Assembly (NCBI GenBank): GCA_016188575.1
Contig: JACPHN010000269.1
Coordinates: 1-64,000 of the forward strand
DNA from: Candidatus Schekmanbacteria bacterium
Lineage (GTDB): Bacteria; CSSED10-310; JACPHN01
Reading direction: 5' to 3'
Length of the DNA: 64,000 bases
The number at the start of each line of letters is the position of its first letter. Position 1 is the stretch's first letter. Of the stretch, positions 7,118 through 47,056 are shown in pieces. The position numbers and the translations under genes are program-made. The notes under the pieces are model-generated. The model was given only the letters and a program-made list of their open reading frames with translations. It made no database searches and was not told the origin of the DNA.

Positions 7118-8587
7118 ATGACCTCTCTGCGCTTCTACATTAACGATGAGCTGATCGAAGAAAGCGAAGCATCGCCCAACACGACCTTGCTGCGCTATCT
7201 GCGCGACCGGCGCGGCCTGACCGGGGCGAAAGAAGGCTGTGCCGAGGGGGATTGCGGGGCCTGCACAGTCGTGATCAGTGGTGAGTCTCCAGCGGGAGAG
7301 CCGCTCCTGCGCGCGGTCAACTCGTGCCTGTTCCTGTTGCCGATGGCTCATGGCCGGCGCGTTTACACCGTGGAAGGTCTGGCGCGCAACGGCACCATGC
7401 ACGCCGTGCAGCAAGCGGCCGTGGACACTCTGTCCTCGCAATGCGGATTTTGTACGCCCGGCGTCGTGATGTCTCTGCTCGAAGCGCACTATCGAGATGA
7501 CCTGGAGTCGAACCCCGCGGCGCTCGATGATCAGCTCTGCGGTAACCTGTGCCGATGCACCGGGTATCGGCCGATACGCGAGGCGCTGGTGCGGATCGCC
7601 GGTAAGGGGCAGCGAGATGATGATATCGCGGGCCCCATACGCGCGTCGCCACCGGTGGGCCGGCAGGCGCTGACGTATGAGGCCGATGGAGAGCTCTATC
7701 AGGCACCAGGAACGCTCGACGAGGCGTTGTCCGTGCTCGCGGCCGAGCCGCGCTGCCGCATCGTCTCCGGCGGCACCGATCTCTCACTCGAGGTCACCAA
7801 GGCACATCGGCGCTTCCCACGCCTGCTGTCCCTGGAGAACGTTCCGGAGCTGCGAGCGATTGGACGTGACGCGGATTCATGGCACTTCGGCGCGGCGGTG
7901 CCCCTCGCGGACATCGAGCAAGCGACCGCTGATACCTTTCCCCCGCTCGCGCGGATGCTGCGCTACTTCGGATCTCGTCAGATCAAGCACCGGGCGACGC
8001 TCGGAGGCAACTTGTGCACGGCCTCGCCGATTGGCGACTGCGCTCCGGTACTGCTGTCCCTCGGCGCGCGCCTACGCCTACGGAGTCGCGAGGGCGCACG
8101 CGAGCTACCGCTCGACGAGCTCTACACGGGCTATCGCGCCACTGCTTTGCTTCCGGGAGAGATCCTGACCGATGTCACGATTCCGCTGCTGCCCGCTGAC
8201 GCGCGAGCGTCTGCGTACAAGGTGTCAAAGCGGCGAGAGCTCGATATCAGCGCGGTCTCCGCTGGCATGCTGGTGCGCATCGGACCCGCGAGCACGATAA
8301 CGGAAGCGCGGATCGCGTTTGGAGGGATGGCCGCGATACCGAAACGCGCGCTCGCTGTCGAACGCGAGCTGGTGGGCCGGCCGTGGACCGGAGAGGTCGT
8401 CGCCAGAGCGGTAGCGGCACTCGAGCAGGACTTTACCCCGATCGACGATCACCGCGCCAGCGCCTGGTACCGCATGTCCGTGGCGTGCAACCTGCTATGC
8501 GGCTTCTTCGAAGAGACGCGCGCCCGACATCTCCCCGCGCTGCCGCCGCTGCCGAGCTCGACGCTGAACCTGGAGAGCGCGCCATGA
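7118..8587 (+). CDS. xdhA: Xanthine dehydrogenase-type small subunit (2Fe-2S + FAD)
   Basis: The 489-residue protein carries two [2Fe-2S] clusters at its N-terminus: C41/C46/C49/C70 (GCAEGDCGAC) and C109/C112/C145/C147 (CGFCTPG, CRCTGY). An FAD-binding CO-dehydrogenase-flavoprotein domain follows (about residues 190-460, with RIVSGGTDLSLEV and TLGGNLCTASPIGD). It shuttles electrons from the molybdenum site of its partner to FAD and NAD-type acceptors. It is the first gene of a seven-gene operon and its stop overlaps the start of the large subunit (ATGA). The fused Fe-S/FAD layout matches bacterial XdhA. The substrate could be xanthine, hypoxanthine or another N-heterocycle. Confidence 0.93.
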   Translation: MTSLRFYINDELIEESEASPNTTLLRYLRDRRGLTGAKEGCAEGDCGACTVVISGESPAGEPLLRAVNSCLFLLPMAHGRRVYTVEGLARNGTMHAVQQAAVDTLSSQCGFCTPGVVMSLLEAHYRDDLESNPAALDDQLCGNLCRCTGYRPIREALVRIAGKGQRDDDIAGPIRASPPVGRQALTYEADGELYQAPGTLDEALSVLAAEPRCRIVSGGTDLSLEVTKAHRRFPRLLSLENVPELRAIGRDADSWHFGAAVPLADIEQATADTFPPLARMLRYFGSRQIKHRATLGGNLCTASPIGDCAPVLLSLGARLRLRSREGARELPLDELYTGYRATALLPGEILTDVTIPLLPADARASAYKVSKRRELDISAVSAGMLVRIGPASTITEARIAFGGMAAIPKRALAVERELVGRPWTGEVVARAVAALEQDFTPIDDHRASAWYRMSVACNLLCGFFEETRARHLPALPPLPSSTLNLESAP

Positions 8588-10902
8588 AGCTCCCGTCACC
8601 GGATGACGGCGCCCTGCTCCATCGTCCCTCGCCGCACGAAAGCGGTCGCCGGCACGTCACCGGCGAGGCCCTCTACGTCGACGATTTTCCCTTGCCCCCC
8701 GGCACGCTCGTGGCCGCAGTGGGCCTCTCCCCGCATGCCCACGCACGGATTCGTCACCGCGACGGCGCCGCTGCGCTCTCCGTGCCCGGCATCCGCGCCG
8801 TCTTCTTCGCCGCCGACGTGCGGGGAGACAACTGCATCGGCCCGATTGTCCACGACGAGCCACTTCTCGCCGAAGAAACCGTCAACTGCGTCGGGCAGGT
8901 CGTCGCTCTGGTCGCCGGCGAGTCGAGCACGGCGTGCCGGGCCGGCATCGCGGCGCTTCAGATCGCCTACGACCCGCTCGCTCCTCGGCTGTCGATAGAA
9001 GACGCGCATGCCGCCAGCGACTTTATCGGCCCATACCATCTCATCAATCGTGGCGACTTTGCTGAGGGATACCGCCGCGCTACTCACCGCATCGAGGGCA
9101 CGCTCCACACCCCCCCGCAAGAGCACTTCTACCTGGAAACGCAGGTGGCGCTCGCGATTCCGCTGGAAGACGGGGCGATGCACATCCACAGCTCCACGCA
9201 GCATCCCACGGAAGTTCAGCACATGGTTGCCCGGGTTCTCGGCATCGGCTACCACCGTGTGGTCTGTGAAGTGAATCGCATCGGTGGCGGCTTCGGCGGC
9301 AAGGAATCCCAGGCGACACAGGTCGCGGCGCTGGCGGCCCTGGCGGCGCGCGCCACCAATCGCCCCGTCAAGCTGTGGCTCGACCGCGACACCGACATGG
9401 CCATCACCGGAAAGCGCCACCCCTTTCGCGCCGACTACCGCGCCGGATTCGACGCTGACGGGCACCTGCTCGCGCTTGATGTGGTCCTGTACGCCGACGC
9501 CGGCTGGACGACCGACCTTTCGCCCGCCATCCTGGACCGCGCGCTGTTTCATCTCGACGGCGCCTATTTTGTCCCGGCAGCGCGCTTTACCGGAAGACTG
9601 TGCCGCACCAACCTCCCCTCGAACACGGCCTTCCGTGGCTTCGGCGGACCCCAAGGAATGTTGGTGATCGACACGATCCTCAACCGCGCCGCGGAACGGC
9701 TCCAGATGGATCCCGCCGAGGTGCGGCGCCGTAACGCCTATGCGGATGCGCCTCGTAACCGCACGCCCTACGACCAGGAGGTCCGGTACAATCGCTTGCC
9801 GAGACTCTTCGACGAGCTGCTGCCGGCGGCACGCTATGCCGGTAGGCGCCAGGCCATCGAAGCGTTCAACGCGGGTTCCACCTATGTCAAGCGGGGAATC
9901 GGGTTTCAACCGGTCAAGTTCGGGATTTCCTTCACCAAGAGCATGCTAAACCAGGCGGGGGCCTATGTCCTCGTGTTCACCGATGGTACGGTTCAGGTCA
10001 ATCATGCGGGAACCGAGATGGGACAGGGGCTGCATACCAAGATTCTGGCGATCTGCTCCGCGGAGCTCGGAGTCGCGACCGGCGCCATCCGGATCATGAG
10101 CACGTCCACCGAGAAAGTGCCGAATACGTCACCAACCGCGGCCTCGAGTGGCTCCGACCTCAATGGTCAGGCGGTTCAGTCGGCCTGCACGACCCTGCGC
10201 CACCGCCTGATTCCCATCGCCGCCGCGATGCTCGGTGTCGAGGAAACTGACGAGCTCACCTTCGCGTCCGGGCTCGTGTCCTTGGCGGCCGACCCCGCTC
10301 GCTCGCGGACCTTCGCGGAAGTCGCAAACGCCGCCTGGATGGCGCGCATTCCGCTTGCGGCAACTGGCTACTATGCGACTCCCGGTATCCACTTCGACCC
10401 CGCTACCGGCACCGGCGAACCTTTCTACTACTTTGCCTTCGGCGGCGCAGTTGCTGAAGTAGAGGTCTGCAGTCTCACCGGCCAGTACCGGGTGACGCGC
10501 GTCGACATTCTGCACGATGCCGGCAACAGTCTGGTGCCCAGCATCGATCGCGGGCAGATCGAAGGGGGATTCATTCAGGGCCTCGGCTGGCTCACGACCG
10601 AAGATCTCCGCCGCGACCCCGCCGGTCGGCTGATCACCCGCGGGCCGTCCACCTACAAGATCCCCTCCTTCGGGGATGCGCCGACCGAATTCTTCGTCAG
10701 GCTCCTTGACCGCGCGGCCCAGCCCGGGGTCATTCACGGCAGCAAGGCAGTGGGAGAACCGCCCTTTATGCTCGCCATCTCGGTCATCACCGCGCTCCGG
10801 CACTCCATGCGCGCTTGTGGCGACAGCGGGAGCGGGGTCGAGCTCAGCCTCCCCGCCACTCCAGAATCCGTCCTGCGAGCGATCACCCGCCAACGATCCT
10901 GA
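8584..10902 (+). CDS. xdhB: Xanthine dehydrogenase-type large molybdopterin subunit
   Basis: At 772 residues this has the usual length of XdhB, the catalytic subunit that hydroxylates the purine ring at the molybdenum site. Family signatures include GRRHVTGEALYVDDF at the N-terminus, the cofactor loop GGGFGGKESQ, the AFRGFGGPQGM segment, and the catalytic-glutamate region GSKAVGEPPF near the C-terminus. The ATG at 8584 overlaps the xdhA stop by four bases, which decides the start; the open frame further upstream lies inside xdhA. The stop is 11 bases before the next hydroxylase gene. It probably needs an XdhC-like maturation factor, not found in this window. Confidence 0.93.
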   Translation: MKLPSPDDGALLHRPSPHESGRRHVTGEALYVDDFPLPPGTLVAAVGLSPHAHARIRHRDGAAALSVPGIRAVFFAADVRGDNCIGPIVHDEPLLAEETVNCVGQVVALVAGESSTACRAGIAALQIAYDPLAPRLSIEDAHAASDFIGPYHLINRGDFAEGYRRATHRIEGTLHTPPQEHFYLETQVALAIPLEDGAMHIHSSTQHPTEVQHMVARVLGIGYHRVVCEVNRIGGGFGGKESQATQVAALAALAARATNRPVKLWLDRDTDMAITGKRHPFRADYRAGFDADGHLLALDVVLYADAGWTTDLSPAILDRALFHLDGAYFVPAARFTGRLCRTNLPSNTAFRGFGGPQGMLVIDTILNRAAERLQMDPAEVRRRNAYADAPRNRTPYDQEVRYNRLPRLFDELLPAARYAGRRQAIEAFNAGSTYVKRGIGFQPVKFGISFTKSMLNQAGAYVLVFTDGTVQVNHAGTEMGQGLHTKILAICSAELGVATGAIRIMSTSTEKVPNTSPTAASSGSDLNGQAVQSACTTLRHRLIPIAAAMLGVEETDELTFASGLVSLAADPARSRTFAEVANAAWMARIPLAATGYYATPGIHFDPATGTGEPFYYFAFGGAVAEVEVCSLTGQYRVTRVDILHDAGNSLVPSIDRGQIEGGFIQGLGWLTTEDLRRDPAGRLITRGPSTYKIPSFGDAPTEFFVRLLDRAAQPGVIHGSKAVGEPPFMLAISVITALRHSMRACGDSGSGVELSLPATPESVLRAITRQRS

Positions 10903-10913
10903 AGGAGGCTCCG

Positions 10914-13574
10914 ATGGCAACCCTGGACTTTGTCCTCAACGGGCGCGGCACGAGCGTCGAATACGAACCCGGCATGACGTTGCTCGAGGTCCTGCGCGCC
11001 TGCTGCGGGGTGACGTCGGCGAAGGACGGCTGCTCCGGGCAGGGCGTCTGTGGCTGTTGCCTGGTGCTGATCGATGGAAATCCCGCGCTTTCGTGTTTGC
11101 GCAGGCCCGAGAAAACGGCCGGAAAGGAGGTCGTCACGCTCGAGGGACTCCCGGAGGAACAGCGCCGCGTGCTTGCTGCAGCCTTTACGCAGGAGGGTGC
11201 CTTGCAGTGCGGATTTTGCACGCCGGGCATTGCCGTGCGCGCCAAGGGGTTACTGGACCGCGGCAAGGGCAAGGACGCGGATGCCGTGCGCAAGGCACTG
11301 GCGGGGAATCTGTGTCGATGCACCGGGTATCAGAGCATCGTTGATGCCATCGCGGCGGCACAGGACGCGTGGTCGGGGGCACCCTTGGCGGGCACGGCGA
11401 CGCGGGCGCCGTTTTTCGGGGAATCCCTGGGGCTCGTCCGGGCAGAAGCCCCGCGCTGCGAGAAGGGTGTCGGTGCGTCCGTTCGAAACTACCAGGGGCC
11501 GGACAAGGTGCTCGGTTGCAAGCCCTACGTCGCCGATCTTGCCGTCGCCGGCATGGCCCATGGCGCCGTCGTGCTCGGCGCCTACCCGCGGGCGCTGGTG
11601 CGTGCAATCGATACGTCGGCGGCGCTTGCGAGCGCCGGGGTAGTGGCGGTGCTGACCGCGTCTGACGTCCCAGGAGATCGCGTCGTGGGGCTGATCAAGA
11701 AAGATTGGCCGGTCTTCGTCGCGGTTGGCGAGGAGACGCGGTGCATCGGCGACGTCCTGGCGTTGGTCGTGGCGGAAAGCCAGTTTTCCGCGCGCGCGGC
11801 GGCGGCAAAGGTGGTGGTGGATTGTGAGCCGCGCTCCCCCGTCACCGATCCCTTCGCGGCGCTGGAGGTGGGTGCGCATGCCGTCCACCCGACTGGAAAC
11901 CTGCTCGAGACGTGCGCGTACACCCGCGGTGACGTCGATCAGGGTCTCGCGAGCGCCGCCCACATCTTGACCGAGCGATTCCAAACCCAACGCATCGAGC
12001 ACGCCTACCTGGAGCCGGAAGCCTGCCTGGCCCTTGCGGCCTCGGATGGTGCCACGATCAAGGTCTTTACCCAAGGGCAAGGAGTGCACGAGGATCAGGC
12101 ACAGATCGCCGCGGTGCTCGGGCTGCCACTCGTGAGCGTGGATGTCGAGCTCGTATCCAACGGGGGCGCGTTTGGCGGCAAGGAGGATCTGTGCGTCCAG
12201 GCGCAGACGGCACTGGCGGCGTGGAAGTTGGGGCGACCGGTGCAGACCGTCTTGACGCGCGAGCAATCGTTGCTCATGCACCCCAAGCGACACCCGTTGA
12301 GCATGGACTACACGATCGGCGCCGACGCCGAGGGGCGGCTGCTCGCGGCACGCGTCCGCATCACGGGGGATACGGGCGCTTACGCATCCGTTGGGACCAA
12401 GGTCCTCGAGCGCGCCGCGGGTCACGCCACGGGGCCCTATCGCGTCCCCGCTGTGGATGTGGAAGCCCGAACGGTCTACACCAATAACCCCCCATGCGGG
12501 GCCATGCGCGGGTTCGGGGTCAACCAGACCTCCTTTGCCATCGAGGGCTTGCTCGATCGCCTCGCCGCGATCATCGGCGTCGACGGCTACGAGATTCGTG
12601 CCCGCAACATTCTGCGTCCCGGAGACGCCTTCGCGACGGGGCAAATCCTCGACAGTGGCGTCCGCGGGCTCGCTCGCAGCCTCGAAGCCGTTCGCGACGT
12701 CTATCGCGCACATCGCTATGCGGGCATCGCCTGCGGCATCAAGAACACCGGGATCGGCAACGGCATGGCCGACATCGGTCGCGTGCGGTTGCGCGTACTG
12801 ACTGGTGGGAGACTGGAGATCCTGACTGGCTACACGGAGATGGGGCAGGGACTGTTCACCATTCTGCGGCAGGTCGTGGCGGAAGAGACGGGGCTCGACC
12901 CGGATGTCATGTCGGTTCGCGCCGTGAGCGACCTTGCGGTGGTTTGCGGCATGACGACGGCATCCCGGGCCACGGCGCTCGCGACGAAGGCGGCACAAGA
13001 AGCGGCGCTACAACTTGCCGCGTCCCTGCGCGAACGCCCGATTTGCGAGCTGGTGGGAGAATGCTTCGACGGCGAATACATCTGCGACTTTACCGTAAAG
13101 CCGGGCAAGGGGGGCGCCAATCCCATAACCCACCTCACGTTTTCATACGCCGCGCAGGTTGTCGTGTTGGACGAGCGGGGCGCACTGGAACGGGTGGTTG
13201 CGGCGCATGACGTGGGGAGGGCGATCAACCCGCTGCAGTGTGCGGGCCAGATCGAAGGCGGCGTCCACATGGGCCTCGGATACGCGTTGAGCGAGGACTT
13301 CCCGTGCACGGGTGGGGTACCTGACTCGCTGCAGCTCCTCGACCTCGGCATCATCAAGGCGCAGCACACGCCGCGCATCGATGTGGTGCTGATCGAGGAG
13401 CCTGATGCCGTTGGCGGCTACGGCGCGAAGGGGGTCGGCGAGATCGGGCTGGTGCCAACGGCAGGCGCCGTTGCGGGGGCGCTGCACGCCTTCGACGGCA
13501 AGTGGCGCACGCGCTTGCCGATGGCCGACGCGGCCGCGGCCGCAGCGCTCGTACCGAAGTCGCGGAGAAGGTGA
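10914..13574 (+). CDS. xdhD: XdhD-type fused 2Fe-2S/molybdopterin hydroxylase
   Basis: This 886-residue protein joins a ferredoxin-type N-terminus (C40/C46/C49/C61, then C99/C102/C134/C136 in QCGFCTPG and CRCTGY) to a full molybdopterin-binding domain (GGAFGGKED, AMRGFGVNQ, catalytic region GAKGVGEIGL). There is no FAD domain, as in E. coli XdhD and the families described as selenium-dependent molybdenum hydroxylases. The first cysteine loop is one residue longer than in the XdhA subunit here. A strong GAAGGAGG site precedes ATG 10914. The ssnA-type gene next door is the hallmark neighbour of this group. Substrate and any selenium dependence are inferred from family context only. Confidence 0.88.
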   Translation: MATLDFVLNGRGTSVEYEPGMTLLEVLRACCGVTSAKDGCSGQGVCGCCLVLIDGNPALSCLRRPEKTAGKEVVTLEGLPEEQRRVLAAAFTQEGALQCGFCTPGIAVRAKGLLDRGKGKDADAVRKALAGNLCRCTGYQSIVDAIAAAQDAWSGAPLAGTATRAPFFGESLGLVRAEAPRCEKGVGASVRNYQGPDKVLGCKPYVADLAVAGMAHGAVVLGAYPRALVRAIDTSAALASAGVVAVLTASDVPGDRVVGLIKKDWPVFVAVGEETRCIGDVLALVVAESQFSARAAAAKVVVDCEPRSPVTDPFAALEVGAHAVHPTGNLLETCAYTRGDVDQGLASAAHILTERFQTQRIEHAYLEPEACLALAASDGATIKVFTQGQGVHEDQAQIAAVLGLPLVSVDVELVSNGGAFGGKEDLCVQAQTALAAWKLGRPVQTVLTREQSLLMHPKRHPLSMDYTIGADAEGRLLAARVRITGDTGAYASVGTKVLERAAGHATGPYRVPAVDVEARTVYTNNPPCGAMRGFGVNQTSFAIEGLLDRLAAIIGVDGYEIRARNILRPGDAFATGQILDSGVRGLARSLEAVRDVYRAHRYAGIACGIKNTGIGNGMADIGRVRLRVLTGGRLEILTGYTEMGQGLFTILRQVVAEETGLDPDVMSVRAVSDLAVVCGMTTASRATALATKAAQEAALQLAASLRERPICELVGECFDGEYICDFTVKPGKGGANPITHLTFSYAAQVVVLDERGALERVVAAHDVGRAINPLQCAGQIEGGVHMGLGYALSEDFPCTGGVPDSLQLLDLGIIKAQHTPRIDVVLIEEPDAVGGYGAKGVGEIGLVPTAGAVAGALHAFDGKWRTRLPMADAAAAAALVPKSRRR

Positions 13575-13575
13575 C

Positions 13576-14958
13576 GTGGACCCTGGGGAGGTCACGCTAC
13601 TGGTTCACGGCGGCACCGTGGTTACGAGCTGGCGGTGCCCGGAGGTCATTGCCGGCGGCGCCGTGGGCATCGCCGGTGCTCGCGTCGCGGTGGTCGGCAG
13701 CAGCGCTGAGCTGCGCGCCGCGCACCCCGGCGCCCGGCATCTGGACGCGCACGGTGGCTTGATCGTTCCAGGGCTCATCAACGCTCACCATCACTTCTAC
13801 TCGGCGTTGGCCCGCGGCCTGAACCCGGGTTATCGAACCGCTACCTTCGTTGACATTCTCGACAAGCTGTGGTGGCGGCTCGATCGAGCTCTGGACCTGG
13901 ATGCGGTGCGGGTGTCAGCGGAGCTGAGCTTGCTGGCATGTATCAAGGCAGGGTGCACCGCCTTTTTCGACCACCACGCGTCACCCGGCTGTATTTCCGG
14001 CAGTCTGGAGGTGATTGGCGAGGCGGCCCTGCGCGCGGGGCTGCGCGGGGTGCTTGCGTATGAGGTCACCGACCGCAATGGCCGCGCCGGCGCGCGACTC
14101 GGAATCGCCGAGAATCAGCGCTTTATCCAGGCTTGTCGCGGCCAGCAACGCCTGCGCGGAGTCATGGGGCTGCACGCGAGCTTTACGCTCTCAGACGAGA
14201 CGCTCGCCGAGGTCGCCGCCGCCCTGGCTGCGCTCGATCCGGCAGATGGCGGCTGCCACGTCCACGTCGCCGAGGATCGTGCCGACGTGAGCGAGTCGCG
14301 AGCGGCGCTCGGAGGAGATCCGGTCGCGCGTCTGGATCGCTTCGGCATGCTCGGGCCGCGCGCACTTCTCGCCCATGGCGTGCACCTCGACGCCGTGGCG
14401 TTGTCGCGAGTTGCCGAAAGCGGTGCGGTGCTCGTGCACAATCCAGAATCCAATGCCAACAACGCAGTCGGTTGGCTCGACCTGAAGCGGGCCCGCGCCG
14501 CGGGAGCAACGATCTGCCTCGGTACAGACGGCATGAGCTCCGCCCCACTGAGATCGCTGCGGTTTAGCTTCCTTGCCGATCGTCTCCAACGCGCGGATGC
14601 CACCGCGGGTTTCGAGGTGCACCCCGAATTGCTCGCCAACAACGCCGCTGTGGCGCGCCGCTTCTTTGACGACGACCGGCTTGGCGAGCTGACTGTGGGT
14701 GCGCCTGCCGACGTGGCGGTTATCGACGCTCCACCGCCGACACCGATGGCGCCCGATAACTTCTTCGGGCATCTCATCTACGGTGCCGCCGATGCGGCCA
14801 TGCGCCACACCATCGCGAGCGGCAAGGTTCTCATGGAAAACGGAGACGTCCTCTCGCTCGACGCGCGAGCGATTGTGGAGAACGCTCGCCGGCTGGCGCC
14901 CGGCCTTTGGGCGCGCTTCGCGGACACGGCACCGGGCACGCCGTTCCGCGTCTTGTGA
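13576..14958 (+). CDS. ssnA: SsnA-type amidohydrolase
   Basis: This 460-residue metal-dependent amidohydrolase belongs to the chlorohydrolase/guanine-deaminase group. Metal motifs are visible: NAHHHFYSAL (HxH), HVHVAED, and GTDGMSSAP near residue 320. In E. coli and clostridia SsnA genes sit beside XdhD-type hydroxylases and have been linked to selenium-dependent molybdenum hydroxylases, though their reaction is not settled. The GTG at 13576 follows the xdhD stop by one base and has GGAGAAGG upstream, so the two are coupled. A role in deaminating or opening a heterocyclic product of the hydroxylases is a reasonable inference. Confidence 0.87.
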   Translation: MDPGEVTLLVHGGTVVTSWRCPEVIAGGAVGIAGARVAVVGSSAELRAAHPGARHLDAHGGLIVPGLINAHHHFYSALARGLNPGYRTATFVDILDKLWWRLDRALDLDAVRVSAELSLLACIKAGCTAFFDHHASPGCISGSLEVIGEAALRAGLRGVLAYEVTDRNGRAGARLGIAENQRFIQACRGQQRLRGVMGLHASFTLSDETLAEVAAALAALDPADGGCHVHVAEDRADVSESRAALGGDPVARLDRFGMLGPRALLAHGVHLDAVALSRVAESGAVLVHNPESNANNAVGWLDLKRARAAGATICLGTDGMSSAPLRSLRFSFLADRLQRADATAGFEVHPELLANNAAVARRFFDDDRLGELTVGAPADVAVIDAPPPTPMAPDNFFGHLIYGAADAAMRHTIASGKVLMENGDVLSLDARAIVENARRLAPGLWARFADTAPGTPFRVL

Positions 14959-14969
14959 AAGAGGTAGGC

Positions 14970-16460
14970 ATGACCCTCGCCATGGCATCCGAACGCGATC
15001 ACAATCGCGCCCAGGCGCTTTGCCGCTGTCGCGAGCGCGGCATCGTCATTCCCACGTTTGCACAGATGCGCGACCCCGCCAGCATGCCCCAGGAAGTCGC
15101 GGCGCGGCTTCTCCACGTTGACATGCAGACTACCGATCCCCTCAACCTGTTTCGGATCACCTGGAAGAACGATGTGCAGACAGGCGGTTTCGGCGCCGTG
15201 AACGCGCTCGCGCTGCCACCAGCGCTGACGGGCGTGCCGGCGCGCATTGTCGGCCTCGTCGGCCGACACTTTCCGACCGGCGCGCACAAGGTCGGCGCCG
15301 CGTTCGGCTGCCTCGTGCCCCACCTCGTTACCGGCGGTTTCGATCCGACTCGGCACCGCGCCGTGTGGCCCTCGACCGGAAATTACTGTCGAGGGGGCGT
15401 ATTCGATTGCGCGCTTCTCGGTTGCCAGGCGGTCGCCATCCTTCCGGAAGGCATGAGCCATGAACGCTTCGCCTGGCTGCGATCGCTCGGCGCTGAGATC
15501 ATCGCCACGCCCGGCTGCGAAAGCAACGTCAAGGAGATTTTCGACGCGTGCTGGCGCTTGCGCGCGAGCGCTCCCGATGCAGTCATCTTCAACCAGTTCG
15601 AGGAGCTTGGCAACTACCTGTGGCACTTCGCCGTCACCGGCGCGGCGGCGGAGGAGGCGGTCAGCGACCTGCTCCAGCGCGGCGCCCGGCTGGCAGGCTG
15701 GGTCAGTGCCACCGGCTCCGCGGGCACGCTCGCGGCCGGCGACTACCTGAAACAGCGCCATCCGGGGAGCTTCATCGCCGCCTCCGAGGCGCTTCAGTGC
15801 CCGACGCTGCTGCGCACGGGATTCGGTGCACATCGCATTGAGGGCATTGGCGACAAGCACGTGCCATGGATTCACAACGCGCGCAATACCGATGCCGTCG
15901 TGGCGATCGACGACGAGGCCGCGATGCGGGTCTTTCGCCTGTTCAACGACGACGCCGGCAGAGAAACGCTGGTGCGGCGCGGCGTCGCCATCGAGACCGT
16001 CGATCGTCTCGGCCTGATGGGCATATCGAGCGTCTGCAACGCGCTTTCCGCCATCAAGCTGGCAAAGTACTTCGAGTTGGACGACCGTGACGTGGTGCTG
16101 ACCGTGTTCACGGACTCTGCCGAAATGTATCGCAGCCGGCTCTCCGAGCTCACGGCGGAGCGCGGAAAGTATGCGTCTTCCCAGGCGGAGATCGACTTCG
16201 AGCGACGTGTCCTCGGTGCTGCAACCGACTCCATGCGCGAGCTGACCTATCCCGAGCGCAAGGCGCTGCACAATCTCAAGTACTTTACGTGGGTCGAGCA
16301 GCAAGGCAAGACGGTCGCGGAGCTCGACGCCCTGTGGTCTCCAGCGTTTTGGCAGGAGGTCGCCGCGAGGCTGCCGGAATGGGATGCGGCAATCGCCACC
16401 TTCAACGCTGAGAGCGGGGCATTGGACACCGTGCGGTCGCGAATAGGTTTCGAGAAATGA
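14970..16460 (+). CDS. Fold-type II PLP-dependent enzyme of unknown substrate
   Basis: The 496-residue enzyme has the tryptophan-synthase-beta/cysteine-synthase fold. The likely PLP lysine is K107 in FPTGAHKVGAAFGC, and a phosphate-binding glycine-rich segment appears as SATGSAGTLAAGDY. It is longer than cysteine synthase (about 300-320 residues). ATG 14970 has GAGGTAGG before it and lies 11 bases after ssnA. Related PLP enzymes, such as 2,3-diaminopropionate ammonia-lyase YgeX/DpaL, occur in the E. coli xdh-ssnA region, so a lyase acting on an amino acid released from a heterocycle is a plausible but unproven role. It could equally be a beta-replacement enzyme. Confidence 0.82.
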   Translation: MTLAMASERDHNRAQALCRCRERGIVIPTFAQMRDPASMPQEVAARLLHVDMQTTDPLNLFRITWKNDVQTGGFGAVNALALPPALTGVPARIVGLVGRHFPTGAHKVGAAFGCLVPHLVTGGFDPTRHRAVWPSTGNYCRGGVFDCALLGCQAVAILPEGMSHERFAWLRSLGAEIIATPGCESNVKEIFDACWRLRASAPDAVIFNQFEELGNYLWHFAVTGAAAEEAVSDLLQRGARLAGWVSATGSAGTLAAGDYLKQRHPGSFIAASEALQCPTLLRTGFGAHRIEGIGDKHVPWIHNARNTDAVVAIDDEAAMRVFRLFNDDAGRETLVRRGVAIETVDRLGLMGISSVCNALSAIKLAKYFELDDRDVVLTVFTDSAEMYRSRLSELTAERGKYASSQAEIDFERRVLGAATDSMRELTYPERKALHNLKYFTWVEQQGKTVAELDALWSPAFWQEVAARLPEWDAAIATFNAESGALDTVRSRIGFEK

Positions 16461-17710
16461 CAGCGACAATGGCATATTGCCTGCGCTGCATCGAGTGCGG
16501 GAAGAGCTGGGAGCCGGATGCCAGCCGCTACGTGTGCCCTGCGTGTGCGGCAGCGCAGGAGCCGGGCGGGTTGACGCGCGGCGTTCTGGCGGTCGAGCTG
16601 GAGAGCTTGCCGCCCCGTCTACCAGACGGACTGGCCGCCACATGCCGTTTCTTGCCTCTCGCCGATGCCTCACTGTTGCCGCCTCTGGCCATCGGCTGGA
16701 CGCCGCTTCTCGAGGTTCCTGCGCTGCGCACGGCCCTGGGCATGCCCCATCTGTACGTGAAGGACGACACTCGCAATCCGTCAGCATCGACCAAGGACCG
16801 CGCCGCGGCGCTTGTGGTCGCCAAGGCCAGAGAGTACGGCCTCTCCACCATTGCCGCGGCGTCGACCGGAAACGCGGCAACGGCCCTGGCCGCCGCATGC
16901 GCCGCCAGCGGGATGAAGGCGATTGTCTTCGTCCCGGCGTCGGCGCCAGAAGCGAAGCTCGTGCAGATACTCTCATACGGCGCGCAGCTCGTGCCCGTCG
17001 ATGGACCCTATGACGCGGCGTTCGAGCTGTGCCTGGCGGCCTGCCAGCGCTACGGCTGGTACAACCGCAACACCGCCTACAACCCCTATACTATCGAGGG
17101 AAAGAAAACGGCGTCGCTGGAAATTGCGGCGCAACTGGCACCTTCGTGGCCCGACGCGGTGGTCGTACCCGTCGGCGATGGGGTCATTCTGAGCGGTGTC
17201 GCCAAAGGGTTTCGCGATCTGGTGCGCGCCGGGCTGGGTCCGCGGCTGCCGCGTCTCATCGCCGCCCAGGCGGCGGGGTCGCCTGCCATCTACGACGCCG
17301 TGCGCGACCCGGCGCGGGTTATCCGCCTCCATTCGAAGGCCGCCAGCGTCGCTGACAGTCTCACGGTCTCCATGCCAAGAAACGGGATCGGTTGTCTGAT
17401 GGACCTCGCGGAGAGTGGCGGTGACGCGGTGCTCGTCCCCGAAGACGAAGTGGTCGCGGCGATCGGGGCGCTGGCGCGCGGTAGCGGCGTGTTTGCCGAA
17501 CCGGCGGCGGCGACCGCGTACGCCGGTTTGCTCGTCGCGCGGCGGCAAGGACTCATCGATGCCGGTGAGCGGGTTGTCGTCTTGATTACGGGCTCGGGTC
17601 TCAAGGACGTCCGCGCCGCCGCCCGCGGCGTTGTCCGCCCGCCGGCAGTCGCACCCCTGATCGAGGCGGTGGACGCGATCTTCGGGCCGCCCGCGGGCCG
17701 GGGCGCATGA
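16457..17710 (+). CDS. Threonine synthase-like PLP enzyme with zinc ribbon
   Basis: This 417-residue fold-II PLP enzyme resembles threonine synthase. A short N-terminal zinc ribbon is visible (C11-x2-C14 and C27-x2-C30). The PLP lysine is K113 in NPSASTKDRAAA, followed by AASTGNAATALAAACAASGMKAIVFVP, quoted here only for its first half AASTGNAATALAAACAA as the phosphate-loop region. It overlaps the previous gene by four bases and the next gene by four bases, so all three are coupled. Its place in a molybdenum hydroxylase/ssnA operon, away from hom or thrB, argues that it is not the biosynthetic ThrC and has been recruited to the catabolic pathway. The substrate is unknown. Confidence 0.85.
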   Translation: MTATMAYCLRCIECGKSWEPDASRYVCPACAAAQEPGGLTRGVLAVELESLPPRLPDGLAATCRFLPLADASLLPPLAIGWTPLLEVPALRTALGMPHLYVKDDTRNPSASTKDRAAALVVAKAREYGLSTIAAASTGNAATALAAACAASGMKAIVFVPASAPEAKLVQILSYGAQLVPVDGPYDAAFELCLAACQRYGWYNRNTAYNPYTIEGKKTASLEIAAQLAPSWPDAVVVPVGDGVILSGVAKGFRDLVRAGLGPRLPRLIAAQAAGSPAIYDAVRDPARVIRLHSKAASVADSLTVSMPRNGIGCLMDLAESGGDAVLVPEDEVVAAIGALARGSGVFAEPAAATAYAGLLVARRQGLIDAGERVVVLITGSGLKDVRAAARGVVRPPAVAPLIEAVDAIFGPPAGRGA

Positions 17711-19527
17711 GCCGTCCCCCTGGCGCGCCGGATTCGCCCGGCGCCGAACCGATCGAAATTCTCGGCAAGACCTTTTTCGTCCCGTGTGCCGAGCGGGCAT
17801 TCGCTGATTGCTCGGAATCTATCCTGCGCCGCGCCGCGGCGGTGCAGGGCCGAGAGATATCGCGTCCGCCCGCACTCGGATTCTTGCCCCGCGCTCCTCG
17901 CAAGCTCGACGCCACCGAGCTGTACGAAGAGGTCGCCCGGGTTCTCGATGACTGTGAGGAACTGCTCCGCGAGCTGAGGCGGCGAACCGATGCTCGCCTC
18001 GGCCTGGTCGAGAAAATCGCGCGGACCGTGCAGGAGGAGCTCCAGGCGAAGACAACCCACCTCGTAGCGCTCGAAAACGAGCGGCGTGCGCTCGGCGAGG
18101 AGGCACGGCGCCACGATGACCGGGCCTTGTCGGATCGGGTGGCGGCCCAAGGAGACCGCCTTCTGGCTGCGGTGCGCGGGCTCGCCTGGGCAGCGCTGCT
18201 GGCACTACGGAAACTCGAGCTCGCCACGGCCGCCATGACGGCGCTTATGAAAGATCTTCGCAGCCGGTCGGATCCCTTGGCGGAGCTCCGCGGGAGGTTC
18301 GATCGCGACAGGCGGGCCTTTGCGCTCGAACGACGCATCGGCGGTCTCGAGCGCGCGGCTCCCGACCTCGAGCGGGCCGCGCCACCCCTTGAGGCGGTCG
18401 TGCGCGAAGCAATCGCTCCGCTGGATTCACTTCAGGACGAGGCAAAGCACGCGGATGGCGTCTTTCATGGGCTGCTGCGGCAGGTGCGCGAAGCGACGGA
18501 GCGTCTGCGCGCCGCATCGGCCGCCTCGCTGTTGCCGGGCGGCGAAGTCCACCCCGTCGCGCTGCCGGTGGGCCTCAAGCTCGATCGGGGGGCGCCCTGC
18601 GTGACCCCGGCGCCGACCGACGACGACGAGGAAGATGTCGCCTTCGATGTGGCGCTCGCCGTCTCCGATGGCGAGCTCGTCGACGTGGCCGTTGGCAGGA
18701 TTCTGGCGCTTACGCGCGAGCGTGTGGCCGCCCTGGACGACAGGCTTCCCGCTGCGCCCACCGGCATCCGCCCGGCGAGCTCCTCGGTGGTCGCACGTGC
18801 TCTGGCCCACGGGTTCGTTCGGCTTCCGGCGGGAGCGTTCCTCATGGGTTCCAACGACGGCGGCTTCGATGAGCGGCCGGCTCACACGGTGACCCTGACC
18901 CGCCCTTTCGACGTGCTCGGTGCGCCGGTGACGCAAGAACTCTACGAGGCCCTCGCCGGAGAAAACCCGAGCCGGTTTCGAGGCCGCGATCTCCCCGTCG
19001 AGAACGTGTCCTGGTTTGCGGCTGTCGCGTTCTGTAATCGCCTGTCGATGGCCGCGGGCCTGACTCCCGCGTACGAGATCCGGGGCGACATCGTGCGGTG
19101 GGCGGGCGCCGAGGCCGCGGGCTTTCGTCTGCTTTCGGAGGCCGAATGGGAATACGCCTGCCGGGCGGGGACTGGGCCCGAACGCAGCGGAGAGCTCGAC
19201 AGGATTGCGTGGAGCGCCGCCAACAGCGGCGGGCGGACGCAGCCCGTCGCGACACGGGAAGCGAATGCGTGGGGCCTGTACGACATGCTCGGCAACGTCT
19301 GGGAATGGTGCGCCGACTGGTACGGTGACTATCAGGGCGTGGCGCAGATCAATCCAGCGGGGCCGTCGGCGGGAGCGCGGCGCGTGGCCCGGGGCGGCTC
19401 CTGGGCCACGGGAGCCGGCGGCATCGGTGCGGCGATCCGCGCCTGCGCCGCTCCCGGTGATTGCTGCCATGACCGCGGCTTTCGAGTTGGCCGGGACGCT
19501 TCCGGTGAGGCGCTCGAGTGCGCCTGA
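17707..19527 (+). CDS. Coiled-coil protein with C-terminal FGE/SUMF1-like domain
   Basis: The 606-residue product starts with about 340 residues rich in charged helices (for example RTVQEELQAKTTHLVALENE), predicted coiled coil. A formylglycine-generating-enzyme-like domain follows: LPAGAFLMGSNDGGFDERPAH, quoted only as LPAGAFLMGS, then VTQELYEAL, FRLLSEAEWEYACRAG, GNVWEWCADWY and ARGGSW. The two copper-binding cysteines of true FGE, expected soon after RGGSW, are not in their usual place (the segment reads WATGAGGIGAAIRAC). It is therefore probably a structural or regulatory FGE-like module. It is the last gene of the operon, joined to the PLP enzyme by an ATGA overlap. There is no signal peptide. 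Confidence 0.8.
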   Translation: MSRPPGAPDSPGAEPIEILGKTFFVPCAERAFADCSESILRRAAAVQGREISRPPALGFLPRAPRKLDATELYEEVARVLDDCEELLRELRRRTDARLGLVEKIARTVQEELQAKTTHLVALENERRALGEEARRHDDRALSDRVAAQGDRLLAAVRGLAWAALLALRKLELATAAMTALMKDLRSRSDPLAELRGRFDRDRRAFALERRIGGLERAAPDLERAAPPLEAVVREAIAPLDSLQDEAKHADGVFHGLLRQVREATERLRAASAASLLPGGEVHPVALPVGLKLDRGAPCVTPAPTDDDEEDVAFDVALAVSDGELVDVAVGRILALTRERVAALDDRLPAAPTGIRPASSSVVARALAHGFVRLPAGAFLMGSNDGGFDERPAHTVTLTRPFDVLGAPVTQELYEALAGENPSRFRGRDLPVENVSWFAAVAFCNRLSMAAGLTPAYEIRGDIVRWAGAEAAGFRLLSEAEWEYACRAGTGPERSGELDRIAWSAANSGGRTQPVATREANAWGLYDMLGNVWEWCADWYGDYQGVAQINPAGPSAGARRVARGGSWATGAGGIGAAIRACAAPGDCCHDRGFRVGRDASGEALECA

Positions 19528-21791: not shown

Positions 21792-24107
21792 ATGGACTTT
21801 GCAGTGCCGGAAGAAGCACAGACGATGGTGCGGATGATCGACGCGCTTGTCGATCGCGAGCTGATTCCACTGGAGCCGGCATTCCTCGCTGGCACGGGCG
21901 CCGACCTTCAGGCCCGGTTGGACAAGGTGCGCCGTCGCGTCCGCCAGATGGGTCTGTGGGCGCCAGCCGGCCCCGGCGAGTATGGCGGAATGGGGTTGGA
22001 CGTGCTGACTTTTGCGCATGTATCAGAAGCCCTCGGCCGCAGTCCTCTCGGGCACTATGCGTTCAACTGCCAGGCCCCCGACGCCGGCAATGTGGAAATC
22101 CTGTGCAAATACGGCACGGACGAGCAGAAGGAGACGTTTCTTCGGCCGCTCGTCGAGGGAAGCATACGCTCCTGCTTCGCGATGACCGAAATCGAAATGC
22201 CCGGCTCCAACCCCGTCATGATGGAGACGACGGCCATCGAGCAGGGGGACGAGTACGTTTTGACCGGGCACAAGTGGTATACTACAGGTGCCGACGGCGC
22301 CGCCTTCGCGATCGTCATGGCGGTGACCGATCCCGGAGCAGCTCCGCACTTTCGCGCCAGCATGCTCATCGTCCCCACGGACACCCCGGGCTTTGATCTT
22401 GTGCGCAATATCTCCGTCATGGGCCACACGGGGAGTGGCTGGCACAGTCATGGCGAGGTCATCTTGCGCGGCTGTCGCGTACCCCGATCCCATCTTCTCG
22501 GCCCGCGCGGGCAAGGATTCCTGATCGCCCAGGAGCGTCTCGGGCCCGGACGCATTCACCACTGCATGCGCTGGCTCGGCGCCTGCAACCGGGCCTTCTC
22601 GCTGATGTGCGACCGCGCCGCCAAGCGCGTGATCAGCCCGGGGCGCACCTTGGCAACCCGGCAGATCATCCAGACGTGGATCGCCGAGAGCGCCGCCGAG
22701 ATTCACGCCGCCCGCCTCATGGTGCTGCACGCCGCCTGGAAAATGACCCGCTTCGGCGCTCGCGAAGCGCGAGCGGAGATCTCCGCGATCAAGTTCTTCA
22801 CGGCGAACGTGCTACAGCGCGTGGTCGACCGCGCGCTGCAGGTGCACGGCGGGCTCGGCATGACCGATGACACGATCCTCGCGTTCCTGTTTCGCTTCGA
22901 GCGTGCCGCCCGCATCTATGATGGCGTCGACGAGGTCCACAAGATCTCCGTCGCCAGGCTGATTCTCGAGGAACCCGAGCGCCTTGGGCACGGCCGCCAT
23001 TTCGACCCGCCAGGCGCCGCCGAACCCGCGGCCGCTGCCGGAGAGCTCATCGACCAGCCCGGTCTCGCGAGACCGGACGAGGTGCTCGATGAAAACCGCT
23101 TGTTGAGCTACCTCCGCAGCGAGCTTGGCATCGCCGCGGATGCGGTTCATGCTCGGCAGTTCCCGTCCGGATACTCCAACCTGACCTACCTGATCACCGC
23201 CGGTGATCGGGAGCTCGTCTTGCGACGTCCGCCGTTCGGCACAAAGGCGGCCACCGCGCACGACGTCACCAGGGAGTTTCGCCTGCTTCAGGCCCTGCAC
23301 CCGCACTTTGCGTACTGCCCGCAGCCAGTCGCGCACTGTGACGACGAAACTGTGCTCGGCGCACCGTTTTTCCTCATGGAGCGGATCGCCGGCCTCATCC
23401 TGCGCAAGGACCTTCCGGGCGCGCTCCGACTGTTGACCGGAGACGCCCGACGCCTTTCGGAACGTCTGATCGATACTCTCGTGGAGCTGCACTCGCTTGA
23501 CGTCGACGCTACGGGTCTTGGCGTCCTGGGGAAACCGCAAGGTTACGCACAGCGACAGGTGCAAGGATGGAGCGAGCGATACCGCACGGCGCGCACCCCG
23601 GATGCTCCGGCCTGCGAGCGGGTGATGTCGTGGCTGGCCGAGCACATTCCGCCGGACCCGCGGCAGCCGTGCCTGGTGCACAACGACTTTCGCTTCGACA
23701 ACATCGTGCTCGATCCGGCGGCGCCAACCAGCGTTATCGGCGTGCTCGATTGGGAGCTCGCGGCAGTTGGCGACCCGCTCATGGACCTCGGCAACTCACT
23801 CGCCTACTGGGTTCAGGCTGACGATCCCGCCGAGATGCAGGCTATCCGCCTTGCGCCGACCCATGTCGGAGGCATGTTGACGCGTGCGGAAGTTTTGGAC
23901 CGGTATTGCCGCGGCAGAGGAATCGGGGAAGTGGACTTCCGCTTCTATCGCTGCTTCGGCCTGTTTCGCCTCGCGGTCATCGCGCAGCAGATCTACTATC
24001 GCTTTTTCCACAGCCAGACCACCGATGTGCGCTTCAAGGCGCTGGTCCACGCCGTGGCGATCCTGGATCGAGCGGCCGAGCAGGTGCTTGCGCCGGGGCA
24101 CTGCTAG
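21792..24107 (+). CDS. Acyl-CoA dehydrogenase fused to aminoglycoside-phosphotransferase-like kinase
   Basis: This 771-residue two-domain protein has residues 1 to about 405 as an FAD acyl-CoA dehydrogenase (FAMTEIEMPGSNP, TGHKWYTTGADG, QVHGGLGMTDDTILAFLFR, the last typical of the ACAD10/11 subgroup). Residues about 430-770 form an APH/choline-kinase fold with QFPSGYSNLTYLI, ELVLRRPPFG, the catalytic VHNDFRFDN and the metal motif GVLDWELAAVGDPLMDLG. Mammalian ACAD10/11 have the same partners in the opposite order and degrade 4-hydroxy acids through a phosphorylated intermediate. A similar pathway is inferred here. The gene stands alone, convergent with motB. Confidence 0.9.
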   Translation: MDFAVPEEAQTMVRMIDALVDRELIPLEPAFLAGTGADLQARLDKVRRRVRQMGLWAPAGPGEYGGMGLDVLTFAHVSEALGRSPLGHYAFNCQAPDAGNVEILCKYGTDEQKETFLRPLVEGSIRSCFAMTEIEMPGSNPVMMETTAIEQGDEYVLTGHKWYTTGADGAAFAIVMAVTDPGAAPHFRASMLIVPTDTPGFDLVRNISVMGHTGSGWHSHGEVILRGCRVPRSHLLGPRGQGFLIAQERLGPGRIHHCMRWLGACNRAFSLMCDRAAKRVISPGRTLATRQIIQTWIAESAAEIHAARLMVLHAAWKMTRFGAREARAEISAIKFFTANVLQRVVDRALQVHGGLGMTDDTILAFLFRFERAARIYDGVDEVHKISVARLILEEPERLGHGRHFDPPGAAEPAAAAGELIDQPGLARPDEVLDENRLLSYLRSELGIAADAVHARQFPSGYSNLTYLITAGDRELVLRRPPFGTKAATAHDVTREFRLLQALHPHFAYCPQPVAHCDDETVLGAPFFLMERIAGLILRKDLPGALRLLTGDARRLSERLIDTLVELHSLDVDATGLGVLGKPQGYAQRQVQGWSERYRTARTPDAPACERVMSWLAEHIPPDPRQPCLVHNDFRFDNIVLDPAAPTSVIGVLDWELAAVGDPLMDLGNSLAYWVQADDPAEMQAIRLAPTHVGGMLTRAEVLDRYCRGRGIGEVDFRFYRCFGLFRLAVIAQQIYYRFFHSQTTDVRFKALVHAVAILDRAAEQVLAPGHC

Positions 24108-28457: not shown

Positions 28458-29822
28458 TCAGGCGGGCACCACCGGGAGCTGTTGAAGCGAGGACTCGAGC
28501 AACGCCGGATCGTAATCGCGGTCCTCCAGTTTGCCCGCAAGGTATTCGTCATAGGCCGTCATGTCGAAATGCCCGTGACCACACAGGTTGAACAGAATGG
28601 CTCTGGAGACGCCTTCCTCACGGCAGCGGATCGCCTCGTCGATGGCGCCGCGCACGGCGTGATTGGCCTCCGGGGCGGGAAGAATGCCTTCGCAACGCGC
28701 AAACGTCACCCCAGCTTCGAAACACGCCGTCTGGTGATAGGCGCGCGGGTTGACGACGCCGAGCTCCACGAGATGGCTCACGAGTGGCGCCATGCCGTGA
28801 TAGCGAAGACCCCCTGCATGAAAGCCCGGGGGAACGAAGGCGCTTCCCAACGTATGCATCTTCACCAACGGCGTCAAATGACCGGTGTCGCCAAAGTCGT
28901 ACGCGTATCGCCCGCGCGTCAGACTGGGGCAGGCCGCGGGTTCGCACGCGATCACGTGCACCTTCCGGCCCAAGCGCATCATGTCACCGATGAACGGAAA
29001 GGCGATGCCCGCGAAGTTGGAGCCGCCGCCGGTGCACCCAATCACGATGTCTGGATAATCCTCGGCTACCGCCATCTGCTCGAGCGCCTCTTTACCGATC
29101 ACGGTTTGGTGCAGCAGCACGTGGTTGAGGACGCTACCCAGAGCGTACTTGGTGTCGTCGCGGCTTGCCGCCATCTCCACGGCCTCGCTGATCGCTATCC
29201 CGAGACTGCCCGCCGTATCTGGAAGCTCCGCCCGGATTCTCCTTCCGGTCTCGGTCTCCTCACTCGGGCTCGCGATGCAGCGCGCGCCATAGGCTTGCAT
29301 GAACGCCTTTCGGTATGGCTTTTGCTCGAAGCTCACCCGCACCATGAATACCGTGACGTCGACTCCGAAGAAGGATCCTGCCAGGGCCAGCGCCGAACCC
29401 CATTGGCCCGCTCCGGTCTCGGTCGCGATGCGTCGAATCCCGGCATCGCGGTTGTAGAAAGCTTGCGGCACGGCCGTATTCGGCTTGTGGCTCCCTGCCG
29501 GGCTGACGCCTTCGTACTTGTAGTAGATTCGCGCCGGCGTATCGAGCACACGCTCCAGCCGCCGCGCGCGGTATAGCGGCGTGGGGCGCCAGAGCTTGTA
29601 GATGTCGCGAACCGGCTTCGGAATCTCGATTTCACGTTCGGAAGACACTTCTTGAGCGATCAGAGCGGGTGGAAACAGTGGCGCCAGGTCATCGGGGCCG
29701 ATCGCCTGCCCTGTGCCCGGATGGAGCACGGGTGGCAGCGGTACGGGCAAGTCGGCGGCTACGTTGTACCAGCTTGTGGGGATTCGGCTCTCGTCCAGGA
29801 CAAACTTGTGCTGCTCGTTCAT
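28458..29822 (-). CDS. trpB: TrpB2-type tryptophan synthase beta chain
   Basis: The 454-residue protein belongs to the longer TrpB2 branch of tryptophan synthase beta chains, joining indole and serine by PLP chemistry. The PLP lysine is K113 in [13 protein letters not shown], and the phosphate loop is [11 protein letters not shown]. The gene is not beside trpA, typical for TrpB2, so it may salvage indole or use serine for another reaction. The second ATG (29822) is preferred because GAGGAG lies six bases before it; the ATG at 29828 directly abuts that site. It converges with the sensor kinase across an 81-base gap with no clear terminator. Confidence 0.92.
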
Positions 29823-30093
29823 TGACATCTCCTCGCACTGCTCCAGGTTCGGGGCTCGCGCCGCCGATGGCACTTTAGGTTAGCAGGGATTCCGGCGCAA
29901 GCTCCGTTCGTGGGCAGCGCCTTTACGCGGGCAACCAGGCCAGTCTTGCCCGCGCCGGCGCGAGAGTCGGATCTGTTCGCGGCCACGCAACGGTTTGCGC
30001 ATGCCGCGCGATAATGTTCCGCAAGCGGCATGCCGGCAGAGTTGGAAACGTGATTCATTTGGTGGACATGACCCCCCAAAGGAGAGGAACCGC

Positions 30094-46171: not shown

Positions 46172-47056
46172 ATGAGCTCCACCTGGACGCTGAGCGAGCT
46201 ACAGACTGGACTGCGCACCGCGGGATATGTGTCGGCCCCGCACATCGACATGGCGCTGTTCCTGGCACTGGCGCTGCAAAAACCGATCCTCGTAGAGGGC
46301 CCCGTAGGCGTCGGCAAGACCGAATTGGCCAAGGCCGCTGCCAAGCTGCTCGGCAGTCGGCTGATCCGACTGCAGTGCTACGAGGGACTGGACGAAAGCC
46401 ATGCCCTCTATGAATGGAACTACCAGAAACAGCTCTTGCGCCTGCAGTCCGACTCGCTGCGCGGGGCCACGTGGAGCGAAACAGAGCGCGACATCTTTTC
46501 CCGCGAATACCTTCTGCCTCGCCCTCTGTTGTCCGCAATCACCTCACCGACCAGAGTAGTTCTACTTATCGATGAGGTGGATCGAGCGGATGAGGAGTTC
46601 GAGGCCTTCCTGCTCGAGCTCCTCGGCGAGCTGCAAGTGACGATACCCGAGCTGGGCACGTTGCGGGCGGAGCATTCGCCGCTGGTGCTGCTTACTTCCA
46701 ATCGGGCGCGCGAGCTCTCCGAGGCCTTGCGAAGACGCTGCCTGCACCTGCCCATGGAGCTTCCGGATTCCTCTCGTGAGCTGGAAATCCTGCGACTGAG
46801 GGTCCCGGAGCTTGATGAGCAGCTCCGCCTGCAGGCGGCGAAGTTTGTCGCCAACCTTCGGGCAATGGCGCTTCAGCGATCACCAAGCCTGGCTGAGTCG
46901 GTCGACTGGTGCAGAGCGCTTGCCGCACTGGGCGCTCGCGAGCTAGATCGCGCCATCGCCAAGGATACTCTCGGGTTGCTTGTCAAGCTTCGTGAGGACC
47001 GCGAGAAGGCAGCCCGCGCCGTCGAAAAGTTGCCGCGCAAGGCCGACACCCCATGA
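46172..47056 (+). CDS. MoxR-type AAA ATPase
   Basis: The 294-residue AAA+ ATPase belongs to the MoxR/CoxD-like chaperones. Walker A is GPVGVGKTEL (residues 43-52), Walker B is VLLIDEVDRADEEFEAF, the sensor region is VLLTSNRARELSEALRRRCL. It overlaps the VWA gene that follows (ATGA), the standard MoxR-VWA pair that remodels or inserts cofactors into target proteins. The target could be the outer-membrane barrel next in line or a metalloenzyme elsewhere (CoxDE-type partners mature molybdenum hydroxylases), but no direct evidence links it to the xdh operon in this window. Confidence 0.92.
   Translation: MSSTWTLSELQTGLRTAGYVSAPHIDMALFLALALQKPILVEGPVGVGKTELAKAAAKLLGSRLIRLQCYEGLDESHALYEWNYQKQLLRLQSDSLRGATWSETERDIFSREYLLPRPLLSAITSPTRVVLLIDEVDRADEEFEAFLLELLGELQVTIPELGTLRAEHSPLVLLTSNRARELSEALRRRCLHLPMELPDSSRELEILRLRVPELDEQLRLQAAKFVANLRAMALQRSPSLAESVDWCRALAALGARELDRAIAKDTLGLLVKLREDREKAARAVEKLPRKADTP

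Follow-up and report, generated by a model that had tools for sequence, protein, structure and literature searches.

A seven-gene operon with two fold-II pyridoxal phosphate enzymes in Candidatus Schekmanbacteria, a likely part of a reductive uric acid degradation pathway

The window analysed here is the first 64 kb (64,000 nucleotides) of contig C136 in the assembly of a Candidatus Schekmanbacteria bacterium, which is 9.2 Mb in size and 94% complete. Between positions 7118 and 19527 it contains seven tightly packed open reading frames on the plus strand, encoding two molybdenum (Mo) hydroxylases, an SsnA-like amidohydrolase, two fold-type-II pyridoxal phosphate (PLP) enzymes, here called PLP-1 and PLP-2, and an FGE-like protein. 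It is likely that this operon is one of two clusters that jointly encode reductive degradation of uric acid, and that PLP-1 and PLP-2 finish the pathway as substitutes for YgeX. The computed results are the gene content, the second cluster, the conserved neighbourhoods, the co-occurrence of PLP-1 and PLP-2 and the absence of YgeX. All substrates and reactions are inferred. With refined starts, the genes of the operon are:

7118-8587, plus strand: gene 1, xanthine dehydrogenase small subunit, xdhA-type, with two [2Fe-2S] clusters and flavin adenine dinucleotide (FAD) (TIGR02963; Pfam Fer2/Fer2_2/FAD_binding_5/CO_deh_flav_C)
8584-10902, plus strand: gene 2, xanthine dehydrogenase large Mo subunit, xdhB-type (TIGR02965)
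10914-13574, plus strand: gene 3, fused iron-sulfur (FeS) and Mo hydroxylase of the TIGR03311/XdhAC type
13576-14958, plus strand: gene 4, SsnA-like amidohydrolase with a GTG start (scored with NF005540 and TIGR03314)
14970-16460, plus strand: gene 5, PLP-1, CysK/CBS-like fold-II PLP enzyme (PF00291)
16457-17710, plus strand: gene 6, PLP-2, threonine-synthase-like fold-II PLP enzyme (PF00291)
17707-19527, plus strand: gene 7, FGE-sulfatase-domain protein with a long N-terminal region (PF03781, 142 bits)

All the families named in the original prediction were recovered in the open reading frames and family scans, on the same strand. The junctions are, in order, -4 (ATGA), +11, +1, +11, -4 (ATGA) and -4 (ATGA), which agrees with the predicted gaps of 11 bases or less and reduces the predicted four ATGA overlaps to three. 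A scan for sigma-70 promoters gave no signal above chance.

Gene 1 scored 514.9 bits with TIGR02963 (cut-off 467) and gene 2 scored 964.4 bits with TIGR02965 (cut-off 849.5), and in the active-site alignment columns gene 2 retains the Glu/Arg/Glu residues of xanthine dehydrogenase (GGFGGKE, AFRGFGG, KAVGEPP). Judged by family match and active-site residues alike, genes 1 and 2 are a canonical xanthine dehydrogenase, XdhAB. Gene 3 exceeds the cut-off of TIGR03311, the 'selenium-dependent xanthine dehydrogenase' (890.1 against 830.45 bits), and supplies by this family match the XdhD/XdhAC-type Mo hydroxylase of a reductive uric acid cluster. It keeps the standard active-site residues of xanthine dehydrogenase, and the E606 insertion region of E. 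coli XdhD is missing. As a marker of yanthine-forming enzymes, E606 proved uninformative, with only one locus protein (L152) aligning well there. SsnA is by far the best family for gene 4, with 442.7 bits for NF005540, 1.3 under the cut-off of 444, and 427.5 bits for TIGR03314 (cut-off 455.5). At 46172-48339 on the plus strand, 27 kb from the operon, an AAA ATPase gene is followed by one for a CoxE-like VWA protein; such MoxR-CoxE pairs are sometimes tied to the maturation of Mo hydroxylases.

In the reductive pathway, published in 2025, XdhD (XdhAC in clostridia) turns uric acid into yanthine, YgfK makes dihydroyanthine and SsnA ureidomethylhydantoin; HyuA then gives 2,3-diureidopropionate, YgeW and YgeY lead to 2,3-diaminopropionate, and YgeX forms pyruvate (PMC12507026, PMC12990295). 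Several of the proteins that the operon lacks were found on contig C189 of the same genome: a YgeW-like carbamoyltransferase (392 bits, cut-off 453) and a YgeY-like M20 hydrolase (192 bits, cut-off 321) with a short YgfK adjacent (424.7 bits, cut-off 835.3; the FAD/NAD(P)H part is absent), together with a divergent YgeV-like sigma-54 regulator. In tetranucleotide composition C189 is about as close to the window as parts of the window are to each other. A D-hydantoinase above its cut-off lies on contig C150, and C102 carries a carbamate kinase that misses its cut-off by two bits. The noted absence of YgfK, carbamoyltransferase and hydantoinase holds for the operon only.

PLP-1 is a CysK/CBS-like fold-II enzyme of an uncharacterised family, with an extra C-terminal helical segment. 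The model (pLDDT, predicted local distance difference test, 91.6) has the CysK/CBS fold with a Z of about 35, the matches covering model residues 36-410 only. The core fold is the same, but identity is about 20-30%, the nearest solved sequence scores 71 bits, and PLP-1 carries additional segments at both the N- and the C-terminal end. Invariant across its relatives are the lysine motif TGAHK and a charged GIGDKH where CysK has GIGAG, and TIGR01139 does not identify PLP-1 as CysK (96.6 bits, cut-off 350.95). An antisense open frame of 732 codons runs across PLP-1 (14778-16976, minus strand), and the relatives have similar ones; most likely these are by-products of high G+C coding sequence.

PLP-2 has the fold of threonine synthase, ThrC, with a Z of about 40-44 to its best matches among solved structures, and in the genome search it came just over the cut-off of TIGR00260 (169.7 against 167.1 bits). 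We nevertheless rejected it as a threonine synthase, since the PLP-2 rows of a FastTree tree form a single clade (support 98) apart from the canonical ThrC rows, the conserved arginine of the ThrC motif NPxRxEGQKT is replaced in all rows of this clade (mostly by T, L or M), and another ThrC, which falls outside this clade, is encoded on contig C72. In ThrC this arginine binds the phosphate of the substrate; in the PLP-2 clade an NRNT/NRSA-type motif precedes its position. PLP-2 shares fold type II with YgeX, the E. coli YgeX structure 4d9m is among its matches (Z 34), and the same position in the pathway is expected, but it scores only 25.8 bits on the YgeX model TIGR03528 (cut-off 532.25) and has no YgeX TDGN motif. 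Even so it is this genome's best match to that model, and PLP-1 is not listed. A third PF00291 fold-II PLP protein is encoded 9 kb downstream, outside the operon (28458-29873, minus strand).

PLP-1 relatives (55-71% identical) were collected from 80 bacterial genomes in Acidobacteriota, Gemmatimonadota, Elusimicrobiota, Chloroflexota, Planctomycetota, Ignavibacteriota, Bacteroidota, Spirochaetota, Bacillota and several candidate phyla. Neighbouring genes were labelled against reference proteins; Louvain clustering was dropped, as it had split the PLP-1 family. Counting SsnA, YgfK, YgeY, YgeW, XdhD/A, YqeA and HyuA on the fetched stretch, where 'YgeW' means carbamoyltransferase, we found at least one uricolytic gene in 55 of the 80 PLP-1 loci, at least two in 42 and PLP-2 in 38; YgeX was the best match in none. 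The closest relatives have XdhD, short YgfK, SsnA, PLP-1, YgeY, carbamoyltransferase and PLP-2 contiguously and in this order; in the acidobacterial locus L035 carbamate kinase follows, and L036 and L039 have nearly the same set. The order XdhA-XdhB-PLP1-SsnA-XdhD in Ignavibacteria (L075, L093) extends this recurrence to genes 1 and 2. Functional coupling of the operon genes, a purine theme and a tie to the E. coli ygfK-ssnA-xdhD region had all been proposed from the window alone, and the recurrence of hydroxylase, SsnA, PLP-1 and PLP-2 homologues with YgfK, YgeY, YgeW, YqeA and HyuA across many phyla supports them. It also supports the peculiarity, noted at the outset, of two different fold-II PLP enzymes.

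PLP-2 follows the uricolytic genes also on its own. Where PLP-1 is elsewhere or distant, such genes were near PLP-2 in 14 of 20 loci, for instance as YgeW-YqeA-PLP2 in an Elusimicrobium with an isolated PLP-1; of the remaining six loci, four lie at the end of a contig or on a short one, and in another the only neighbours are of the mocA/yqeB type. In the Elusimicrobiota L040, L042, L047, L053 and L058, PLP-1 sits amid conserved unrelated genes (CpXC-type and poly(A) polymerase-type by inspection). In L040 and L047, the two of these that were checked, PLP-2 is elsewhere and adjoins carbamate kinase.

Other members of the set vary as well. Short YgfK proteins (L144:16146-18116, L035:6328-8523) keep about profile positions 3-452 and have no FAD/NAD(P)H part, so that electrons must reach them from some other protein, which has also been suggested for clostridial UacX. 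Some of the proteins labelled YgeW in Acidobacteria and Chloroflexi clusters (L035:12731-13705, L095:2431-3609) are nearer to ornithine carbamoyltransferase than to YgeW and below every curated cut-off, possibly a second replacement within the pathway. In the Chloroflexi L057, L069 and L106, look-alikes of a nucleoside-type ATP-binding cassette (ABC) transporter (an ATPase and two permeases, by inspection) separate carbamate kinase from PLP-2, in keeping with uptake of purines.

The original prediction was that a purine or other N-heterocycle is degraded to an amino acid, and the neighbourhoods bear on the corresponding alternative, in which a related heterocycle other than uric acid is degraded to another amino acid. 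The substrates of gene 3 and SsnA are unreadable from sequence, and the ordinary active site of gene 3 with no E606 region would suit such a route. It is nevertheless improbable, as relatives show the operon together with the complete uricolytic set, in Chloroflexi along with the transporter genes. Moreover, C. difficile xdhA5 has been described with the same fused FeS and Mo architecture as gene 3, and reduction of uric acid to yanthine has been reported for XdhAC of C. sporogenes.

The association of PLP-1 and PLP-2 was examined in 41 genomes not picked for PLP-2, with a profile that gives PLP-2 proteins about 400 bits and up and other threonine-synthase-like proteins no more than 368. All 12 genomes with a strong PLP-1 had a PLP-2 of at least 425 bits, and none of the 29 without PLP-1 did (one of these had a borderline match of 399 bits); the comparison covered these two genes. 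Fisher's test gave about 1e-9 to 1e-10, uncorrected for relatedness, and as seven of the twelve belong to one phylum the true weight is lower. Among further PLP-1 genomes 36 of 39 had PLP-2. PLP-1 and PLP-2 belong to one trait. The named proteins that they resemble most are cysteine synthase and threonine synthase, and they might be general enzymes of cysteine and threonine biosynthesis that merely happen to be located in the operon. This we find very hard to believe, given the co-occurrence, the neighbourhoods, the separate PLP-2 clade with its replaced arginine, and the other ThrC and CysK-like genes of this genome.

No protein above the TIGR03528 cut-off was found in this genome or in eight others, and the same model recovered YgeX from E. 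coli. A full-length YgeX-type protein is lacking in 46 of 50 PLP-1 genomes and present in four (533, 497, 388 and 249 bits). One of the four, G056, has no PLP-2; this would be expected if a genome uses either PLP-2 or YgeX. A published survey coloured each PF00291 gene near SsnA 'YgeX' (PMC12507026). A full-text search of the open-access literature found no paper linking threonine-synthase-like or CysK-like enzymes to uricolysis. The original prediction suggested an undescribed route, which is not supported, as the operon fits the published pathway and the seemingly missing genes are in the second cluster; what is undescribed is the PLP pair where YgeX would be expected. The operon is an ordinary one of a known pathway at its front end, and its back end is an apparently unreported variant.

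In the proposed pathway, genes 1 and 2 would oxidise hypoxanthine or xanthine to uric acid, which gene 3 would reduce to yanthine (2,8-dioxopurine). Yanthine would then be dearomatised by the short YgfK of C189, SsnA would open the ring of dihydroyanthine, and the hydantoinase together with the YgeW-like carbamoyltransferase and YgeY-like hydrolase may carry the product onward to 2,3-diaminopropionate. The genome covers every step by homology but the last, and there it has two PLP enzymes. We therefore regard PLP-2 as the probable lyase, and PLP-1 as another enzyme acting at the end step. Most likely PLP-2 would be a 2,3-diaminopropionate ammonia-lyase yielding pyruvate and ammonia, as a substitute for YgeX. 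PLP-1 would most likely catalyse a further beta-elimination or beta-replacement at this step, whether on the other stereoisomer, in the role of a racemase, or on albizziin, the ureido amino acid. This division of roles is a guess from linkage.

The roles may also be reversed, with PLP-1 as the diaminopropionate lyase of reductive uricolysis and PLP-2 as an accessory enzyme (a racemase, or like serine/threonine dehydratase). CysK-like enzymes of the VioB and SbnA families do 2,3-diaminopropionate chemistry via aminoacrylate, which counts for this alternative, as do the stronger conservation of PLP-1 with its invariant GIGDKH and its position bordering XdhD, SsnA or YgeY in many loci. We consider it possible but rather unlikely, because PLP-2 is linked to YgeW, YqeA and YgeY even when PLP-1 is elsewhere, and because G056, with a YgeX-like protein and no PLP-2, keeps its PLP-1, which is expected if PLP-2 is what replaces YgeX.

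Several observations weigh against a uricolytic operon that ends in PLP-1 and PLP-2. The SsnA, YgeW, YgeY and YgfK of this genome are all under the curated cut-offs, the hydantoinase and the carbamate kinase are unlinked to the two clusters, and the composition of the C102 stretch fits the window less well. No YgfM-type FAD partner adjoins gene 3, though C. difficile XdhD is likewise reported with none adjoining, nor did the clusters reveal a urate permease. In many genomes PLP-1 is isolated (Elusimicrobia; L153, L154), and in three of the four PLP-1 genomes with a YgeX-type protein it occurs alongside PLP-2.

Gene 7 overlaps PLP-2 by ATGA, and it could accordingly be a functional seventh member, as the original prediction had it, serving the pathway for instance as an activating enzyme or a metal-dependent one. 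This is the least credible of the alternatives: in the 80 relatives an FGE gene was never adjacent to PLP-1 and only once on the same stretch, and the genome has about 22 FGE-domain matches. The original prediction had named relatives with this gene elsewhere as its refutation, and for gene 7 this is what the relatives show. Probably the gene is a passenger, in the operon by position and outside the pathway. Further downstream, a single open reading frame (21792-24107, plus strand) encodes an acyl-CoA dehydrogenase fused to an APH-type kinase domain, in that order.

The anaerobic urate pathway was worked out on E. coli and clostridial enzymes, and in many environmental phyla the position of YgeX holds two other families. 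It is conceivable, with chances that we put a little short of even, that a widespread environmental version of reductive uricolysis has a final PLP step shared by two enzymes, in which two uncharacterised fold-II families replace YgeX and act on different stereoisomers or on successive intermediates (for example by racemisation, or by elimination of urea from albizziin and then of ammonia). Such an end step, if true, bears on the stereochemistry and the order of the last reactions, and a commentary counts both the stereochemistry and the order in which the ureido groups are cleaved among the open questions (PMC12990295). Replacement of the D/L-ambivalent YgeX by two enzymes would make the stereochemical question directly testable, and PLP-1 and PLP-2 can serve as markers that help to recognise the pathway where YgeX is missing.

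Compared with the E. coli pathway (XdhD-YgfM, YgfK, SsnA, HyuA, YgeW, YgeY, YgeX; PMC12507026), the genome has in common an XdhD-type Mo enzyme, SsnA-, YgfK-, YgeW- and YgeY-type proteins, a hydantoinase and a carbamate kinase, a xanthine dehydrogenase alongside, and a YgeV-like regulator divergent from ygeW, an arrangement that is the same in E. coli and on C189. It differs in that the genes are at two loci, the XdhAC-like gene 3 has neither YgfM nor the E606 region, YgfK has no FAD/NAD(P)H part, and YgeX is absent, with two other fold-II PLP enzymes instead. The clostridial variant (XdhAC, UacX, UacY; C. sporogenes, C. difficile; PMC12507026, PMC12990295) is similar in having an XdhAC-type enzyme with no FAD subunit and a dearomatising reductase with no FAD domain, but it keeps YgeX, and it has UacX and UacY where this genome has the short YgfK and a carbamoyltransferase.

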